DNA of 64,000 nt from Singulisphaera sp. GP187 (GTDB taxonomy: Bacteria; Planctomycetota; Phycisphaerae; Phycisphaerales; SM1A02), in NCBI GenBank assembly GCA_945868805.1, contig CAMBMO010000001.1:1-64000 (forward strand), given 5' to 3'. The position numbers and the translations under genes are program-made. The notes beneath the pieces were generated by a model. The model was not told the origin of the DNA and did not search any database. It worked only from the letters and a program-made list of their open reading frames with translations. Below are positions 3,745 through 50,870 of this stretch, in pieces; positions within the stretch are counted from its first letter, which is position 1; each line of letters opens with the position of its first letter.

Positions 3745-4604
3745 TCAAACAGGCCAACATGATCCAACAGTTCAACTCTCAACCGTGCATGTGGGTCGTC
3801 ACGTTATGCGGTTTGGCATTGACGGGTTGCGTGGCCCAGCAACAAACGATGTCGAATCTGCCTTGTGCTCAGGAGATTCACGCCGATGTTGTGGCGGCGG
3901 TCAAGAGTTTGACGGCGCAGGCGCAGAAGAGCCCGATGGCGGTGGAGCCACAGCTCTGCCTCTCATATGCGTACATCGCCCAGAAGAAATACGCCGCCGC
4001 CGTTGAGTCCGCCAGTCGAGCACTTGTGCTTTCTCCAGATAACGCACTCGCACTTCGAATGCGCGCCTTTGCTCGATACCGCATGGGTGCGTACCCCGCT
4101 GCGATGAAAGATGCGTCGGATTCATTGAAGTTTGATTCGTCGGGTGAGGCGTATGAGATTCTGGGGAAGTGTCGTCTTCGCACGGGGGATGCCGTAGGGG
4201 CAGCGGAGGATTTTCGAGTTTGGGCCAATCTGGATCAGTCAATTGAAGCACGCTGTTGGATGGGATCGGCGCAGTGGACCAGTGGCGATCAGGCGGGTGC
4301 GATCAAGACCTGGCTTACCGCTGAATTGGTCGCGCCGAAGGATCCGGAGCCGTTCATCTGGAAGTGCGGATTCCTTTATCGAGCAGGTGACAAGGATGGC
4401 GCACTCGCCGCAGCTCATCGCGCTGTGGAACTCGCGCCCGCCTCTCCGCAGGCACTCGGGACACTCGCTCGAGTTCAATCGTGGAATGGTGACAGTGCGG
4501 CCGCGACTGCGACCGTTGCGGAACTCGCCAAGACGAATGCTTCCGCCGCGGCCAAGTTGGCGATTGAGTTGAAGGGGACAGTCCCTACCGCAAAGGGGAC
4601 GTGA
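3741..4604 (+). CDS. TPR-repeat lipoprotein
   Basis: A 287-residue exported protein. A hydrophobic segment ends in the lipobox LTGC at about residue 30, after which several 34-residue tetratricopeptide repeats follow (for example [19 protein letters not shown], and [20 protein letters not shown]). TPR proteins are scaffolds for protein-protein contacts; the partner here is unknown. The ATG at 3741 overlaps the copA stop by four bases, which supports that start, although ATGs at 3759 and 3789 would also keep the signal peptide. Coupling to copA suggests it is made together with the copper pump, but nothing in the sequence shows metal binding. Confidence 0.75.
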
Positions 4605-25777: not shown

Positions 25778-26224
25778 CTAGTACATCGGCACGCTCGGGT
25801 CGATGTCGGTCGACCAGAGGTGGATGCCACCCGCGAGACTGCGCACATCGTCGAAACCAGCTTGGCGCAGAGCCTCTGTCACCTTTAAGCTTCGCATCCC
25901 ATGATGGCAGTGCACGACGATCGGCGTTGCCTCGTACGCCCTGAGTGCAGGGATATGTTGCGAAATTGACTGCATCGGCGCATGGATCGAGTCGGCGATC
26001 TTGGCGAGTTCGCGCTCGGCGTCGGTCCTGCAGTCGATGAGAATGATTCGCTCACCAGCCTCACGGCGACGGCGAAACTCCCTTGGCGTGATCTCCCAAT
26101 CGGCGTTGAATGGATAGTCCTTCGGAAGTCCAGAAAGGGGTTGAGCGGAAGAATCGTTTTTGGGAAAGTTGTTCAATTGCGATTCTCTGCTTCGATGGTA
26201 TCGGGAGCGAAGGTGTGTGCACAT
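25778..26224 (-). CDS. Rhodanese-domain sulfurtransferase
   Basis: A single rhodanese domain of about 148 residues. EITPREFRRRREAGERIILIDCRTDAERE is the first half. The active-site loop is VVHCHHGMRS, where Cys carries the persulfide and the CX4R loop has the length typical of sulfur transfer rather than phosphatase activity. The end SLAGGIHLWSTDIDPSVPMY is typical of small cytoplasmic rhodaneses of the GlpE group. Acceptor unknown. The ATG at 26224 is favoured because it lies 34 bp after the previous gene on the strand. Confidence 0.87.
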   Translation of the reverse strand: MCTHLRSRYHRSRESQLNNFPKNDSSAQPLSGLPKDYPFNADWEITPREFRRRREAGERIILIDCRTDAERELAKIADSIHAPMQSISQHIPALRAYEATPIVVHCHHGMRSLKVTEALRQAGFDDVRSLAGGIHLWSTDIDPSVPMY

Positions 26225-26258: not shown

Positions 26259-27185
26259 CTAGTCACGATGCTTCGAATGACACTCGGTACAGCTCGCACC
26301 GAGGCGCGCGAACACTCTCGACGCTTTGTCGTACTCGTTGCGTCGGAGCAATTCTTCAAGTTCTGAAGCTGTCGCGCTCGACCGCGCGATCCACTCACGC
26401 AATTCCGCGCGTGCGACCTCATTCATCCTAATGCTCGCTGACGGACCCGCGATCAATCGGAGTTGGTCCGCGATCGCCCCAGCATCCGCCAATGGCGCCA
26501 GATCTGGATGGTCGGGAGGAGCAACCCATCCATTTTTCTGCGCCAACTTCAGTCGGTCGAAAATCGCGTCCATCTCAATCATCGCATCCACGAACGAATC
26601 AGGTTTGGAGATCTTTGGAAACTCGTCACTCGCGGCGTCGATATCGTGCGCGCTCATCGGCTGTGCTGATGCGGTGCAGGTCCAGAGCCCTTTGTAGCCG
26701 GGCGAGGTCCCCGCAACCAACATCCGCGCTGCTGCCTGCTCATTCGTCATCCACCCGAGCGATACCGCAACGACCCCTGCGACGCATGCGCTTCGGTGCT
26801 TTCCGTGGTGGCAGTGCAGGTAAATCGGTTTGGGCAGATCGCGAACAGCGCGCACGAGTTGCGCCTTTCTGTCGTCGGCAACGCCGTCGTACCCGATCGG
26901 GAAATGCACGTAAAGCATGGCATGGTTGTCAGCTCGCACGAGATCAGGCTTCGCACCGTCAACCGAAATGATGGTCTTTATTCCGAGAGTTGAAAGCGAA
27001 ACAAATCCCGGTTCGCCTCTCGGCGCGCTTCCAGAATAGAAACTCTCGTGGAATTCCACCACATTCGAGATTCCCGGATAGTCGCGTGGCAGTGGAGCAC
27101 TTGATGGAGCACGCTGGATCCCGAGGCACATCAAAATGGTTAGTGCGAACAGATGCTTGGGACCAATCACGACTGGATCGTACAA
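26259..27185 (-). CDS. Dual-specificity-type phosphatase fused to a cytochrome c'-like C-terminal domain
   Basis: The 308-residue product starts with a signal or anchor segment (HLFALTILMCLGI). Residues 35-170 form a cysteine phosphatase domain with STLGIKTIISVDG, a likely general-acid region YDGVADD, and the P-loop YLHCHHGKHRSACVAG (Cys-X5-Arg). The last 130 residues are helical and end in RLGASCTECHSKHRD, a CxxCH heme c site in the C-terminal position used by cytochrome c'. Both halves would lie in the periplasm, where c-type heme is attached. The linked rhodanese gene downstream has a nearly identical HCHHG loop. Substrate and the role of heme are unknown. Confidence 0.8.
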   Translation of the reverse strand: MYDPVVIGPKHLFALTILMCLGIQRAPSSAPLPRDYPGISNVVEFHESFYSGSAPRGEPGFVSLSTLGIKTIISVDGAKPDLVRADNHAMLYVHFPIGYDGVADDRKAQLVRAVRDLPKPIYLHCHHGKHRSACVAGVVAVSLGWMTNEQAAARMLVAGTSPGYKGLWTCTASAQPMSAHDIDAASDEFPKISKPDSFVDAMIEMDAIFDRLKLAQKNGWVAPPDHPDLAPLADAGAIADQLRLIAGPSASIRMNEVARAELREWIARSSATASELEELLRRNEYDKASRVFARLGASCTECHSKHRD

Positions 27186-27225: not shown

Positions 27226-27714
27226 CTAGCGCTGAATCGGCGGTGCGATTGGATTGCTCCAGGTCGGCTGTCGAAGAGTGCGCCCAGGGCACTCTCCGCA
27301 CGCCATCTTGACGGGTGTCATGACAAAGAGCACGGCAGGCCAAATCGGTTCGATGAATCCGTCCAAGACGATTGACGATGCGCTCGACTCGCCCTGGAGT
27401 GCACTCGCAACCGTTGGATACTCCCCACCATCGCGAGCGGTTCCCGTTGCAATCGTCAGTTCTTCGCAGTAGGTGGGCTGCACTTCAACCTGCCCTTGAG
27501 GAACAAGCACTTGAACAATGTCCCAGTTGCCACGATCGAGGCCGAAAAGAGAGGGCTGTTCGTTGGCAGAGATGCTGGATCGACTGCTTGCCGAGAGAGC
27601 GCCAATCGTGTCGGAATCCGCTCCAAGGAGTCCGTTTTCTTGATTCAGATGTCCAGTGCATCCGACAAGCAGGACGAGCAGGCAGGTCGCGCAGGCTGGT
27701 TGCAAGTTACTCAT
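27226..27714 (-). CDS. Unknown lipoprotein
   Basis: Not recognised. The 162 residues begin MSNLQPACATCLLVLLVGCTG, with a lipobox VGC at residues 17-19, then a Ser-rich stretch and a C-terminal domain with DIVQVLVPQGQVEVQPTYCE and two further cysteines in KMACGECPG. The start at 27714 lies eight bases inside the recX gene, so the two are probably translated together. The frame is open upstream to 27846 but homologous features begin at the signal peptide. Confidence 0.65.
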   Translation of the reverse strand: MSNLQPACATCLLVLLVGCTGHLNQENGLLGADSDTIGALSASSRSSISANEQPSLFGLDRGNWDIVQVLVPQGQVEVQPTYCEELTIATGTARDGGEYPTVASALQGESSASSIVLDGFIEPIWPAVLFVMTPVKMACGECPGRTLRQPTWSNPIAPPIQR

Positions 27715-28396
27715 CGAAGTCAATCCCTTCTTGGCGTAGAGCCGAACGAATCGTATCTGCGTCCATTCCGCGATGAAGAAGCGCTCCTGCGACTGTGAGT
27801 GGATGCTTTTTGCCGCGATTCGCGAGCGCCTCTCGTGCCATCGCAATCGCTAGGTGCTTCGCTTGAGGAGTTCCGGCAACCCGGCGTCCTTCGCGAGAAG
27901 CACGGACTTGGTCGATCCCCTCAGATTCCAAGAGCTGAGAGAGTGAATCGACCGAGAGACCACGCCGACTTCTCGAAACACTCGATGCTCGAATGGTGGC
28001 GTGTGTGTCGTCATTGAGCCAGCCATCCGACTTCAGCTCTGCGATCGTCTTGGCGACAAGATCGGCGTCGTATCCCTTTCGGTCGAGTCGCTGCGCAAGC
28101 GTTGCACCGTTTTGCGTGCTTTTGGCGAGCAAACTCATCGAGTATTCCCTGGCTTCACGATGGGCCACGAATTGTCGAACCCGTTTCGCGACGGCGGGAG
28201 TCCAATTCATCCCATCGCGAATGCGAAGTTCAGTCAACGATTCGCGGGGCAGTCGCGCGACGGATCGAGCGACTCCTTCGAGAAATAACTTCGCCCAACG
28301 CGGGTCCTTGTTGTCGCTCTCGATGCGGTCGAGTCGTCGAGATTCGGTCCCGTTCGACTTGAACGCGCGGGGACTTGTTGTGCTCGGCCGACTCAT
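27707..28396 (-). CDS. recX: RecX-family regulator of RecA
   Basis: Three-helix-repeat protein that binds RecA filaments. The 229 residues have SMSLLAKSTQNGATLAQRLDRKGYDADLVAKTIAELKSDGWLNDD, the hallmark of the first RecX repeats, and GMDADTIRSALRQEG at the C-terminus for the last repeat. The first 80 residues form a Lys/Arg-rich extension. RecX often sits beside recA, but here it is between a TPR gene (ATGA overlap upstream) and a lipoprotein gene. LexA is found in this window, but recA is not. Confidence 0.85.
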   Translation of the reverse strand: MSRPSTTSPRAFKSNGTESRRLDRIESDNKDPRWAKLFLEGVARSVARLPRESLTELRIRDGMNWTPAVAKRVRQFVAHREAREYSMSLLAKSTQNGATLAQRLDRKGYDADLVAKTIAELKSDGWLNDDTHATIRASSVSRSRRGLSVDSLSQLLESEGIDQVRASREGRRVAGTPQAKHLAIAMAREALANRGKKHPLTVAGALLHRGMDADTIRSALRQEGIDFDE

Positions 28397-46706: not shown

Positions 46707-49700
46707 TCATTTCTTCCCACAGCACTGCTTGTACTTCTTTCCCGATTTGCATGGGCACGGTTCGTTGCGACCGATCGCTCCTGGGATTTCAGGTGCGCTC
46801 GAACTTCGTGGAGCTGTCAGCAGAGATGTTCCCGACGCAGCAAGAGCGGACGCCGATCTTCCTGCGGGTGCTCCCGCGCGCTCCGCGATGGCGATGTCGC
46901 GTTCTTGCGCCTGAGTCGGTACGACCGCGGCGATGGGACCTGGAGAGTTTGGTTTCGCCGGAGTCGCAGGAAGGGCGCCGGCGTCTGCGACCGAAGGCGC
47001 GATCTGAGGAGTCGGAGGTCGCATTGCCTGTGGGGACAACTTTCCCTTGAAGACGAGATCGGTGACTCGTTCGCGGACATTTGAGAGCATCTCGCCAAAG
47101 AGTCGCGAAGACTCTTTCTTGAATTCGATTCGGGGATCCTTCTGGCTGAACGATCGGAATGAAATCGAGTCGCGCATCTGATCCATGCTGTGAAGATGGT
47201 CTTTCCATGCCTGATCGAGAATCTGCAAGAGCACAAAGCGCTCGAACTGTTCAAGTTCCTCTCGCAAGAGTCGAGTGAGCCGTTGAATCAGGAATGCTTC
47301 TGGATCGCTGGTCATCTCTGCACGTTCGGCGTCGGTCAATCGAATAAAAACGGTCTGCTGAAGCCATTGATCGACCGCGGCCGCCAATCCATCGGAAGCT
47401 CCCATCGAAGTCCCAGCTGCGCTTTGAAGCGTTGCCAAGATTCTCGAGACGCGCTCACGAATTCGAGATCCATCCCATGTCTTTGCCTCCTCGACCAAGA
47501 GCCGTCTTAGTTCGGCAGGATCGGCAGATGGAAGGCCTTGGGGATTCCAATTCAATTCATATCTTCCGCGTGCCCATCCGCAAAACTGAGTGAGCGCGGC
47601 CTCTGGAAATGCTTGGATATTGACATTCACAAACTCGATTGCGAAATCGATCGGGTATTCGATTTCGCGATCGAGATATGCGCTCCTCACCGCCTGTTGA
47701 AGCTTGCTCGTGGCTTCATTGGGGTCGATCACTCCAACGAGCAAGTCTTCTGCGACCGGTTTTCCGAGCATTCGTCCCAACCAGTGAATCAGATCCCTCG
47801 CGCCATAGCCGGGTTTCAAGAGAGGCTCGAGTGGACTGAGATCAATTGCCCTGAATCGCTTGAGTGCGGCGATTTCGATTCGTTTCACGACCCCGCTACG
47901 ACCTTCGCTCTCGATGACTTCATCGGTGATAGTCGCGCCGTAAGTCTTCGATGCCCACTCGATCACTCCAGGACGATCCCATTCCGATGGATCTGAATCT
48001 TCGGGGATGTACTCGCCGATCGTCACAGTGATTTGAGACGATGCCTCCTCTGGCGCGTCGGTCGTAATTGTCTTGAGAACCGCATCCCGATCCTTCCCTT
48101 TGAATCTTTCAGCGTCGATGGTGATACCGAAAGCTTCCCAGACCCACTGAGAGATCGCGCCCGGAACATGCAAGGGCGAGAGGTAGGTGGCAACCGCGTC
48201 CGCAACCGCTTCGTCGAGGAAGGCGACAACAACATCCTTGATCCCACGCCCTTCAAGGATGGGTTGGCGACGACCATAGAAGTTGCGACGTTGGACTTCC
48301 ATGGGTTCGTCGTAATCGAGAATCGTCTTGCGTATTTGGAAATTGCGCTCTTCCACTTTGCGCTGGGCCTTCTCGACGGCGCGAGTGAGCATCGGGGCTT
48401 CGATCGCGTCGCCTTCCTTCATCCCGAAACGGCTCAACACATTGAGCGTCGTACGACCTGCAAACATCTTCATCAAGTCGTCATCAAGGGCGAGGTAGAA
48501 GCGTGTCTGACCATTGTCTCCTTGTCGACCCGATCGTCCTCGCAATTGGTTGTCGATTCGTCGACTCTCATGTCGCTCGGTGCCGACGATATGGAGTCCG
48601 CCGAGATCGTCAATGGTCGGGAAGAACTGCAATCGATGGATGCTCCATCCTGCGAAATCGAGTTCCGACTCCATCGCCTCGTTCGACATCGATTCGATCT
48701 TCTTCGGCGAGATGTCTCTGGCTTCCGAAACCCAGTGTCGAAGGAGAGATCGACGCACCGCACCCGCATCCATTGCCTCAAGTTCCTTCGCTGGTAATTC
48801 GAGCAATCGCCCAGCCAGATGCTTCTCAATCAGTCGAAGGCACGCGGCTTCGCCCAAACTGGCATCCGCCTCACGAGGTGCGAGATTGCGCTTTTTCCAA
48901 TGTTCGATCAGTGTTGCGGGTTCGATTGAAGTGAGCTTGATGTCCGTACCGCGTCCTGCCATGTTGGTCGCGATCATCACTGCGCCGAGCTGACCAGCAC
49001 CGGTGATAATTTCTGCTTCGCGTTCATGCTGCTTCGCGTTGAGCACCTCGTGTCGAATCGTGTGCTTCTCGGTCAGCATCCGACTGAGCATCTCGCTCTT
49101 CTCGACGCTCGTCGTTCCGACGAGAACCGGTGCACCCGTATCGTGGATGCGCTTGATCTCGTCGACGATGCAATCCCACTTGTCTTTCTGCGAGAGAAAA
49201 ACGAGATCTTGGCGATCAATACGCACGGTCGGAACATTGGTCGGTATCGATACGACGGAGAGTCCATAGATTTCGTGGAACTCGGTCGCTTCTGTATCCG
49301 CCGTACCCGTCATCCCGGACAAGCGCTTGTACAGTTTGAAATAGTTCTGGATTGTGATCGTCGCCATCGTCTGGGTTTCTTCCTTGATGCGAACGCCTTC
49401 CTTCGCTTCGACCGCCTGATGGAGACCGTCGGACCACTGCCTGCCGACCATTTTTCGTCCAGTGTTCTGGTCGACAATCACGACGCCGAGTTGGCCATCC
49501 TCGTCCGGGGCGACGACATAGTCGCGGTCGCGTTGATAGACGGTGTGTGCGCGAACGGACTGCTCGAGCAAGTGGGGGAGATCCATGTTCTCGCCGACAT
49601 AGAACGAGCCGATTTTCGCTTCCCTTTGCGCCTCCTCGACGCCCTCATGGGTGAGTGTCGCGCGTTTCTTGTCCATCTCAAGTTCGAAGTACTGCACGAA

Positions 49701-50870
49701 GCGTTCGCGTGCGTGTTCGAGAGTTGGAAGTTGCTTGCGCGCTTCCTCGAGTCGTTGCTTGATGGGCGGAATCGACGATTTTTCGCGCGCGTTTCGAATG
49801 TCGCCCTCGGCACCAGCCATGCTTGCGCGACAGCGCTGGACCTTGTCGTCGGCGCTCTGCCATTCAGATTGTCGAGCGACCAGGTGCAATGCGAGACGAT
49901 TCGAGAGGTCGTAACGTGGCTGCTGATTGTATGCGGGACCAGAAATGATCAGTGGCGTTCGTGCTTCATCGATCAGGGTCGAATCGACTTCGTCGACGAT
50001 GGCGAACTGTCGGGACCGTTGAACCTGATCGATGGCCCGGACTTTCATATTGTCACGCAAGTAATCGAATCCGAATTCGCTCGTCGTTCCGTAGACCACA
50101 TCGCACGAGTAGGCGATGATCTTCGCGCTCGGGGGTTGCATATGCATAGGATGGATCGCGCCGACGGTCAAACCCACCGCTTTGAAAAACGGGAATGTCC
50201 AATCACGATCGCGTTGAACGAGATAGTCGTTCACAGTCACGACATGCACTTGTTTCTCATCGCACGCGGCGAGATAGCACGCGAGCGGCCCGACGATGGT
50301 CTTCCCTTCGCCGGTCTTCATCTCTGCGATTCGTCCTTCGCTCAGCACAATTCCGCCAATGATCTGCACATCGAATGGGCGCGCCCGGAACGGAGGGCGG
50401 CTTTCAGGGAGGAGCTCTCGAACTCCGTTGTAGACACTGACCGGAATGTCAACGAGTTGCCAACCTGCTATATCGCCGTGGCATCCGCGGAGATCGCCCG
50501 AAGGTTCGCGTGGCGCGGTTGCAGACATGATCGCCTGGGTTTCGAGGTAGGCGCTTCGAGCGGGTTCGCTCAGAGACTGTGGATCGAAGCCGAGTGCCGG
50601 ATCGAAGACATTGCGGATGCCGACGGAGCGGTCCATTGCCTCGCGGGCGCATCCGAAGATCTCTGGGATCATGTCGTACGGTCGCTCCCCCTTGTGAACT
50701 CGCTCGCGGAAGACGAGGATCATCCCTCGAAGTTCGGCATCGGTCATTGCCGAATACTTGGACTCAAGTTCGCTGACCTTGTCGACAATTCGAAGGTAGC
50801 GACGCACCATGCGTTGGTTTTGGGTTCCGAATGTCTTACGGATGAAATAGTCGATGACTGGAATTGGCAT
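46707..50870 (-). CDS. secA: Preprotein translocase ATPase SecA, enlarged planctomycete form
   Basis: Motor of the Sec export pathway. Walker A is AEMKTGEGKT (184-191 region). VYGTTSEFGFDYLRDNMK, GMTGTADTEATEF, ATNMAGRGTDIKL and GTERHESRRIDNQLRGRSGRQGD are hallmarks. The C-terminus NEPCPCKSGKKYKQCCGKK is the zinc-binding CXCX8CC SecB site. At 1387 residues it is about 480 longer than E. coli SecA. Extra segments are seen at about 88-162, in the preprotein domain (a helical stretch near 330-400), in the second nucleotide domain and, largest, in the helical-wing region (about 250-300 extra residues before MDQMRDSISFRSF). All catalytic motifs are kept. The large open frame on the other strand is a shadow. 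Confidence 0.97.
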   Translation of the reverse strand: MPIPVIDYFIRKTFGTQNQRMVRRYLRIVDKVSELESKYSAMTDAELRGMILVFRERVHKGERPYDMIPEIFGCAREAMDRSVGIRNVFDPALGFDPQSLSEPARSAYLETQAIMSATAPREPSGDLRGCHGDIAGWQLVDIPVSVYNGVRELLPESRPPFRARPFDVQIIGGIVLSEGRIAEMKTGEGKTIVGPLACYLAACDEKQVHVVTVNDYLVQRDRDWTFPFFKAVGLTVGAIHPMHMQPPSAKIIAYSCDVVYGTTSEFGFDYLRDNMKVRAIDQVQRSRQFAIVDEVDSTLIDEARTPLIISGPAYNQQPRYDLSNRLALHLVARQSEWQSADDKVQRCRASMAGAEGDIRNAREKSSIPPIKQRLEEARKQLPTLEHARERFVQYFELEMDKKRATLTHEGVEEAQREAKIGSFYVGENMDLPHLLEQSVRAHTVYQRDRDYVVAPDEDGQLGVVIVDQNTGRKMVGRQWSDGLHQAVEAKEGVRIKEETQTMATITIQNYFKLYKRLSGMTGTADTEATEFHEIYGLSVVSIPTNVPTVRIDRQDLVFLSQKDKWDCIVDEIKRIHDTGAPVLVGTTSVEKSEMLSRMLTEKHTIRHEVLNAKQHEREAEIITGAGQLGAVMIATNMAGRGTDIKLTSIEPATLIEHWKKRNLAPREADASLGEAACLRLIEKHLAGRLLELPAKELEAMDAGAVRRSLLRHWVSEARDISPKKIESMSNEAMESELDFAGWSIHRLQFFPTIDDLGGLHIVGTERHESRRIDNQLRGRSGRQGDNGQTRFYLALDDDLMKMFAGRTTLNVLSRFGMKEGDAIEAPMLTRAVEKAQRKVEERNFQIRKTILDYDEPMEVQRRNFYGRRQPILEGRGIKDVVVAFLDEAVADAVATYLSPLHVPGAISQWVWEAFGITIDAERFKGKDRDAVLKTITTDAPEEASSQITVTIGEYIPEDSDPSEWDRPGVIEWASKTYGATITDEVIESEGRSGVVKRIEIAALKRFRAIDLSPLEPLLKPGYGARDLIHWLGRMLGKPVAEDLLVGVIDPNEATSKLQQAVRSAYLDREIEYPIDFAIEFVNVNIQAFPEAALTQFCGWARGRYELNWNPQGLPSADPAELRRLLVEEAKTWDGSRIRERVSRILATLQSAAGTSMGASDGLAAAVDQWLQQTVFIRLTDAERAEMTSDPEAFLIQRLTRLLREELEQFERFVLLQILDQAWKDHLHSMDQMRDSISFRSFSQKDPRIEFKKESSRLFGEMLSNVRERVTDLVFKGKLSPQAMRPPTPQIAPSVADAGALPATPAKPNSPGPIAAVVPTQAQERDIAIAERAGAPAGRSASALAASGTSLLTAPRSSSAPEIPGAIGRNEPCPCKSGKKYKQCCGKK

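Follow-up and report, generated by a model that had tools for sequence, protein, structure and literature searches.

A planctomycete protein that joins an exported cysteine phosphatase fold to a class II cytochrome c domain

A minus-strand gene in the window (the whole 64,000-nucleotide stretch of Singulisphaera sp. GP187 DNA that was analysed) encodes an exported protein in which a phosphatase domain is joined to a heme c domain, and this pairing is well supported. An earlier note, made from the letters of the window, had proposed that one reading frame joins a cysteine phosphatase loop with a C-terminal heme c domain; Pfam, structural models and relatives confirmed this, and the frame (26259-27185) stands with its strand corrected to minus. 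Full-length relatives in many genomes rule out a chance frame or an assembly artefact. Each half has a known fold, and the pairing would be the new part. The best explanation of what the protein does, held tentatively and at somewhat less than an even chance, is a redox-coupled periplasmic cysteine phosphatase.

Counted from the TTG at 27185, which is residue 1 in the numbering used here, the frame encodes 308 amino acids. The true start is more likely the GTG at codon 6 (27170), since by eye three close relatives (L002, L003, L005) have GTG at the corresponding place. Pfam matches of the window protein are to Y_phosphatase2 (2.5e-5) and Cytochrom_C_2 (0.0035), both below the curated cut-offs. 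The C-terminal stretch around the heme motif reads CTECHSKHRD, and its CTECH was also recovered by a separate pattern search. In a rough scan, the N-terminus was hydrophobic and export-like in 116 of 122 rows, 64 of these with a lipobox-like pattern, suggesting that the protein is periplasmic or lipid-anchored.

Table 1. Coordinates of the fusion gene, its parts and its neighbours in the window, and of the triple fusions in related loci.
Feature	Coordinates	Strand	Evidence
Whole gene: exported DSP/PTP phosphatase and class II cytochrome c fusion	26259..27170	minus	likely GTG start
N-terminal export signal, hydrophobic stretch LFALTILMCLGI	27096..27170	minus	sequence (predicted)
DSP/PTP-fold phosphatase domain, residues 34-165	26691..27086	minus	AF2 model pLDDT 92.7 and structural matches
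Phosphatase loop HCHHGKHRS, residues 124-132; C125, G128, R131 invariant	26790..26816	minus	alignment
Four-helix class II cytochrome c domain, residues 188-308	26262..26624	minus	AF2 model, cb562 matches, Cytochrom_C_2
Met202, invariant, predicted sixth heme ligand	26580..26582	minus	135/135; b562 residue 7 by alignment range
CTECH heme c attachment motif, C299, C302, H303 (residues 299-303)	26277..26291	minus	135/135
Rhodanese-domain gene, just downstream of the fusion gene	25778..26224	minus	Rhodanese 2e-15; start by eye
Small lipoprotein-like gene, lipobox-like VLLVGC, upstream of the fusion gene	27226-27846	minus	
Glutathione peroxidase, phosphatase and heme c triple fusion	L011:793-2328; L009:1501-3033; L013:649-2355; L012:844-2331		

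The CxxCH motif is present in 30 of the 31 frames with E < 1e-20, the exception (L017) ending at a contig end, and the HCX5R motif in 29, the exceptions being one frame that ends at a contig end (L029) and one (L025) whose loop is CETGRDR, the leading His being lost. Among 80 loci found by the phosphatase-loop pattern, a choice that makes the CxxCH count the independent one, 78 have CxxCH and two (L098, L109) stop at contig ends; some of their contigs are shared with the set of 31 frames. Both motifs occur in all 72 listed family rows (53 distinct), which were drawn from high-scoring matches plus two plasmids. In an alignment of 135 proteins less than 95% identical to each other, 11 of the 283 positions are invariant: P55, H94, P96, Y99, C125, G128 and R131 in the phosphatase half, and M202, C299, C302 and H303 at the heme sites. 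H124 and R307 are each kept in 134 of the 135. The alignment combines 72 rows of alignment A2, selected by the loop pattern (the window protein excepted), with 63 from outside A2, picked by score or by coverage of both model ends, and in these 63 rows C125, R131, M202 and C299 are each found 63 times.

The conservation of CxxCH, which the earlier note had made decisive for its reading, holds in the complete fused homologues that were read, and three divergent relatives carry CxxCH in an adjoining gene. Several apparent members lacking the heme domain were discarded: three (G264, G196, G614) merely stop at contig ends, two (G245, G631) lie within 85 bases of one, and another (G249) only seemed partial and is complete, with CTACH. 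With hits that end at contig ends or proved complete on reading set aside, the three strongest true phosphatase-only hits in the phylum-wide sample (G061, G187, G198) are split pairs.

In the split pairs L188, L189 and L190, the gene with the heme motif adjoins the phosphatase gene on the same strand. The phosphatase frame of L188 ends at 4464 and its cytochrome gene can start at 4551; the gap is about 83 bases there and about 82 bases in L190, and would shrink with an earlier ATG as the start. The cytochrome gene of L189 has a GTG start that overlaps the phosphatase stop. L190 (3582-4535, minus) has a pair of phosphatase-like repeats, of which the second lacks the Cys loop, followed by the cytochrome gene; it lies near a contig end, has a tRNA-binding-like N-terminus (0.0022) and is possibly an assembly chimera. 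The cytochromes match Cytochrom_C_2 at 5.7e-5 (L188), 0.0012 (L189) and 0.033 (L190), all below the cut-off, and profile alignment places the helix-A Met in that of L188 only, the alignment not reaching the Met in L189 and L190. In a tree, one of the three split phosphatases groups within the fused clade (98/89) and the other two lie beyond it, on long branches; that the split state came first and the fusion later may be taken only as a lead. Five of the weaker phosphatase-only hits (L191-L195) are plain DSP paralogues (HCxHGxDRT), for which the same search (E <= 1e-3) found no heme partner nearby.

Modelled alone with AlphaFold2 (pLDDT 92.6, pTM 0.86), the heme domain is a four-helix bundle with CxxCH on the last helix. 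Among its structural matches are cytochrome cb562 variants, which superpose with an rmsd of about 2.1 Å across roughly 100 residues (Z 13-14), and the Kusta0087/0088 cytochrome of anammox bacteria (Z 13.2-13.8), at Z values close to those that helical bundles can attain by chance. The family call is therefore based on sequence profiles and CxxCH together with these second-look Z scores, since Foldseek gave no match to the heme domain below 0.001, its first rows being cytochromes c' at 0.04-0.06 (best 0.042). In a profile search of the PDB with the heme half, the first hits with a stretch that passes alone were cytochromes c' (4.3e-5). The PPR and solenoid rows that head that profile list had no stretch that passes alone and were put down to helical-repeat noise; the b562 tags fused to receptors in some structures have the same fold and add no information. 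Cytochromes c'/c556 and cb562 share with the heme half the four-helix bundle and the C-terminal CxxCH, and the predicted ligation is that of b562. The known class II c-type cytochromes are free-standing carriers or gas binders, and none met in the comparison is joined to a phosphatase. A cytochrome c assembly protein (PF01578) is also encoded in the window's genome.

When the domain is aligned with b562, model residues 9..120 cover residues 1..106 of the chain. Counting back from the end places C112, C115 and H116 (C299, C302 and H303) on b562 residues 98, 101 and 102, while M15 (M202) comes to lie on residue 7 if the first helix is ungapped, a placement made from alignment ranges only. We take b562 residues 7 and 102 to be the Met and His heme ligands, and 98 and 101 to be the engineered cysteines of cb562. 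Because the invariant M202 falls at the Met-ligand position of b562, the heme is predicted to be closed and six-coordinate, with His303 and Met202 as ligands. A heme of this kind would make electron transfer or redox control likelier than NO sensing; the earlier note had suggested either redox or NO sensing, and redox control fits, whereas NO sensing is weakened by the invariant M202. A gas sensor, in which the heme binds NO or CO at an open site and thereby switches the phosphatase, would agree with the grouping of the heme domain with cytochrome c' by Pfam and PDB profile, since that family is known for NO binding and its classical members bind NO at an open distal site; however, with Met in 135 of 135 sequences at the place of the b562 ligand, the distal site is probably occupied, and though NO could displace a weak Met, a gas sensor seems very unlikely.

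The 72 family rows were scanned one by one at E <= 0.01, a threshold that differs from Pfam's own cut-off, and matched Cytochrom_C_2 in 62 rows, PTP-SAK in 61, Tc-R-P in 58, BLH_phosphatase (PF04273, DUF442) in 29 and Y_phosphatase2 (PF03162, Siw14/PFA-DSP) in 16. The AlphaFold2 model of the protein, built from the family alignment without heme, has a pLDDT of 92.7 and a pTM of 0.77, the arrangement of the domains being uncertain. Structures that match the phosphatase half are TpbA (Z 16.8, rmsd 2.8, 154 aligned), SsoPTP (16.7), DUSP23 (16.5), Siw14 (15.9) and AtPFA-DSP1 (15.8), Z differences of less than 1 being ties; a DUF442 protein appears at Z 15.3, not first. The best PDB profile match is also TpbA (2m3v, 1.7e-8), and this periplasmic dual-specificity phosphatase (PA3885) is the closest solved relative of the phosphatase half. 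TpbA has the loop HCKHGNNR, Asp105 as the proposed general acid and a periplasmic domain that hydrolyses phosphotyrosine peptides (PMC4409338). TpbA differs from the family described here in being without a heme domain, and as against its Asp105 the presumed equivalent is D in 71 of the 135 aligned proteins.

Of the features of the DSP/PTP superfamily, the fold and the Cys and Arg of the HCX5R loop were found, and the general-acid Asp is absent as a conserved feature, the corresponding residue 100 being D in 71 of the 135 proteins, N in 39, S in 12 and another residue in 13. This Asp is not required of the superfamily, since AtPFA-DSP1 also lacks it. At the position that follows the loop Arg, 100 of the 135 proteins have S, 31 have G and four have A; in ordinary PTPs, a change of this Ser would slow turnover. 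Siw14 and AtPFA-DSP1 are eukaryotic and are not known to carry heme. They are inositol pyrophosphate phosphatases that resemble the present family in the Lys-His-Arg loop and in the proposed absence of a dedicated general acid (PMC9038691), and they differ from it in the other loop residues before Lys-His-Arg. Loop residues Lys154-His155-Arg156 of AtPFA-DSP1 coordinate phosphate, mutation of His155 or Asp191 costs more than 90% of the activity, and the proposed catalytic cycle uses no residue as general acid (PMC9038691). The equivalent of His155 is kept in 132 of the 135 proteins. The window protein scores 24.4 bits against the PF03162 cut-off of 27, and because that cut-off is missed, the phosphatase half is filed here under the DSP/PTP superfamily as a domain that would work like a PFA-DSP without being a member.

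A PTP fold may also serve other chemistry. Blh (DUF442-ETHE1) is likewise a PTP-fold domain fused to a redox enzyme, its partner being the ETHE1 dioxygenase, not a cytochrome, and its DUF442 domain has been identified as a sulfur transferase acting from thiosulfate to cyanide (PMC5823870). This precedent keeps alive the earlier note's alternative of a phosphatase fold with another reaction. The PTP-fold domain would then be a sulfur transferase or a thiol/persulfide oxidoreductase, with a persulfide on C125 and the cytochrome as electron acceptor, in the manner of sulfur oxidation in the periplasm. The BLH_phosphatase matches in the family rows point in this direction, as does the variable general-acid position, since sulfur transfer would presumably need no such residue; a direct cytochrome partner would be natural for an oxidation, and in the genus of the window a rhodanese gene follows the fusion gene. 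However, the family keeps the CX5R spacing of PTPs together with the Lys-His-Arg that coordinates phosphate in AtPFA-DSP1 (PMC9038691), phosphatases (TpbA, SsoPTP, DUSP23, Siw14) lead the structural and profile matches, if partly within the range of ties, and the rhodanese adjoins the phosphatase-heme gene in just six of 80 loci, all of the window's genus. Sulfur chemistry, the chief rival to the redox-coupled phosphatase, is judged unlikely.

The rhodanese gene is probably co-transcribed with the fusion gene, in the window's genus only; by eye, its loop CHHGMR resembles the phosphatase loop. The lipoprotein-like gene on the other side has no Pfam match at E <= 1 and co-occurs with RecX and TPR genes in six same-genus loci. 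A widely common neighbour was not found, at most six of 42 loci sharing one when overlapping frames are excluded, and some neighbours were common to 7-9 loci in a separate neighbourhood comparison. Most of the widely shared neighbour frames in that comparison were rejected because they look like shadow frames of the fusion gene itself. With no widely shared neighbour, the gene context is of little help in identifying the substrate. Elsewhere in the window (46707-50870, minus) is a very long SecA frame (1387 aa), which contains SecA domains as well as a SEC-C motif.

In one genus (g22), a glutathione peroxidase is encoded in frame ahead of the phosphatase in four of the five genomes read; GSHPx matches range from 9e-38 to 8.4e-41 in L009, L011 and L013, and BLAST joins L012 to them, whereas the fifth genome (L018) has no glutathione peroxidase in frame. 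This fusion is confined to that genus and is the only recurrent N-terminal extension that could be assigned. The contigs of three further loci (L068, L073, L092) equal those of L011, L012 and L013 in length. The genome of the window has a free-standing glutathione peroxidase. Other long N-terminal open frames were set aside, most of them looking like read-through in GC-rich DNA, and the extension of L014 has no Pfam match. A single case (L025:4986-6977, minus) has a Na/Ca exchanger (1.4e-58) in frame ahead of the phosphatase-heme unit.

The redox-coupled phosphatase that we tentatively prefer would have a Cys-dependent domain of the DSP/PTP fold, with an HCxxGKHR loop and, as in Siw14 and the PFA-DSPs, no dedicated general acid. 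Because of the latter, substrates with easy leaving groups (phosphoanhydrides, aryl phosphates) would probably be preferred. The heme would connect C125, or the oxidised form of this residue, electronically with the redox pool of the periplasm or with a peroxidase, and dephosphorylation would be on in one redox state only. The exchange of electrons with C125, the identity of the substrate and the on/off switching are points that we can only infer. Control or repair of the redox state of C125 by heme electrons would be the simplest coupling because the heme and the nucleophilic Cys are kept together, and coupling at C125 is suggested also by the location of the protein, where cysteines encounter oxidants, and by the peroxidase attached to it in one genus. 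The pairing suggests that an enzyme type usual in signalling may be controlled by, or may feed into, electron flow outside the membrane. A broader version, in which such proteins across the phylum are heme-gated cysteine phosphatases whose catalytic Cys is set reversibly by heme electrons, in some cases from the fused glutathione peroxidase, so that dephosphorylation reads the respiratory or peroxide state, is doubtful.

Domain fusions need not be allosteric, and the cytochrome might be an ordinary carrier whose tether to the exported phosphatase serves localisation or stability, unless it is the phosphatase domain that is an inactive anion-binding module; the drift at two catalytic positions, the general acid and the Ser after the loop Arg, would accord with such a lack of coupling. 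Against this, both sites are strictly conserved together, in fused or adjacent genes, in divergent genomes, and the invariant C125 and R131 speak against the inactive-domain version in particular. An uncoupled protein is rather improbable.

The earlier note had proposed looking for the same architecture in other planctomycetes, and at least 130 of 392 genomes in a phylum-wide sample have a match that spans both domains. At E <= 0.001, matches were found in 31 of 61 genomes (the window's own counted), in 167 of 301 genomes and 81 of 147 genera of an order-level sample, and in 188 of 392 genomes and 137 of 267 genera of the phylum-wide sample; the three samples overlap, and the tallies take in weaker phosphatase-only matches. 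Both domains are spanned by 131 of the 150 phylum-wide matches listed, in 130 genomes, which makes the number above a floor, and by all but three of the order-level matches listed. Public genome contigs contain at least 546 confirmed relatives, of which the best 80 were kept, and among informative record titles most name planctomycetes. The gene is also found in records titled Vicinamibacteraceae (L092), Limnohabitans (L050), Chitinophaga (L053) and Leptolyngbya (L076), titles that are probably wrong. Conservation across Planctomycetota is patchy. Within the same genus, the window's own genome aside, nine of 18 genomes have no match, indicating that the gene is dispensable. Two members are borne on plasmids, WP_148599161.1 of Aquisphaera giovannonii and WP_068422821.1 of Planctomyces sp. 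SH-PL62; both motifs are present in each, the first is labelled as a dual specificity protein phosphatase and the second as hypothetical, and neither product name mentions the heme domain.

Among the papers listed in searches of the open-licence PMC literature, judged by titles and abstract openings, no description of the phosphatase and heme c architecture was found. PTP-type enzymes are sensitive to oxidation of the catalytic Cys, but none is known to us that contains a heme electron carrier of its own. A single small protein is enough for a direct test of coupling. Coupled sites would form a direct physical bridge from electron transfer to dephosphorylation, in a phylum that is large and little studied; sulfur chemistry, if that is what the fold performs, would make the protein a cytochrome-linked sulfur or thiol enzyme of a new kind. 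In both cases, the fusion protein is encoded by about one third or more of the planctomycete genomes sampled.
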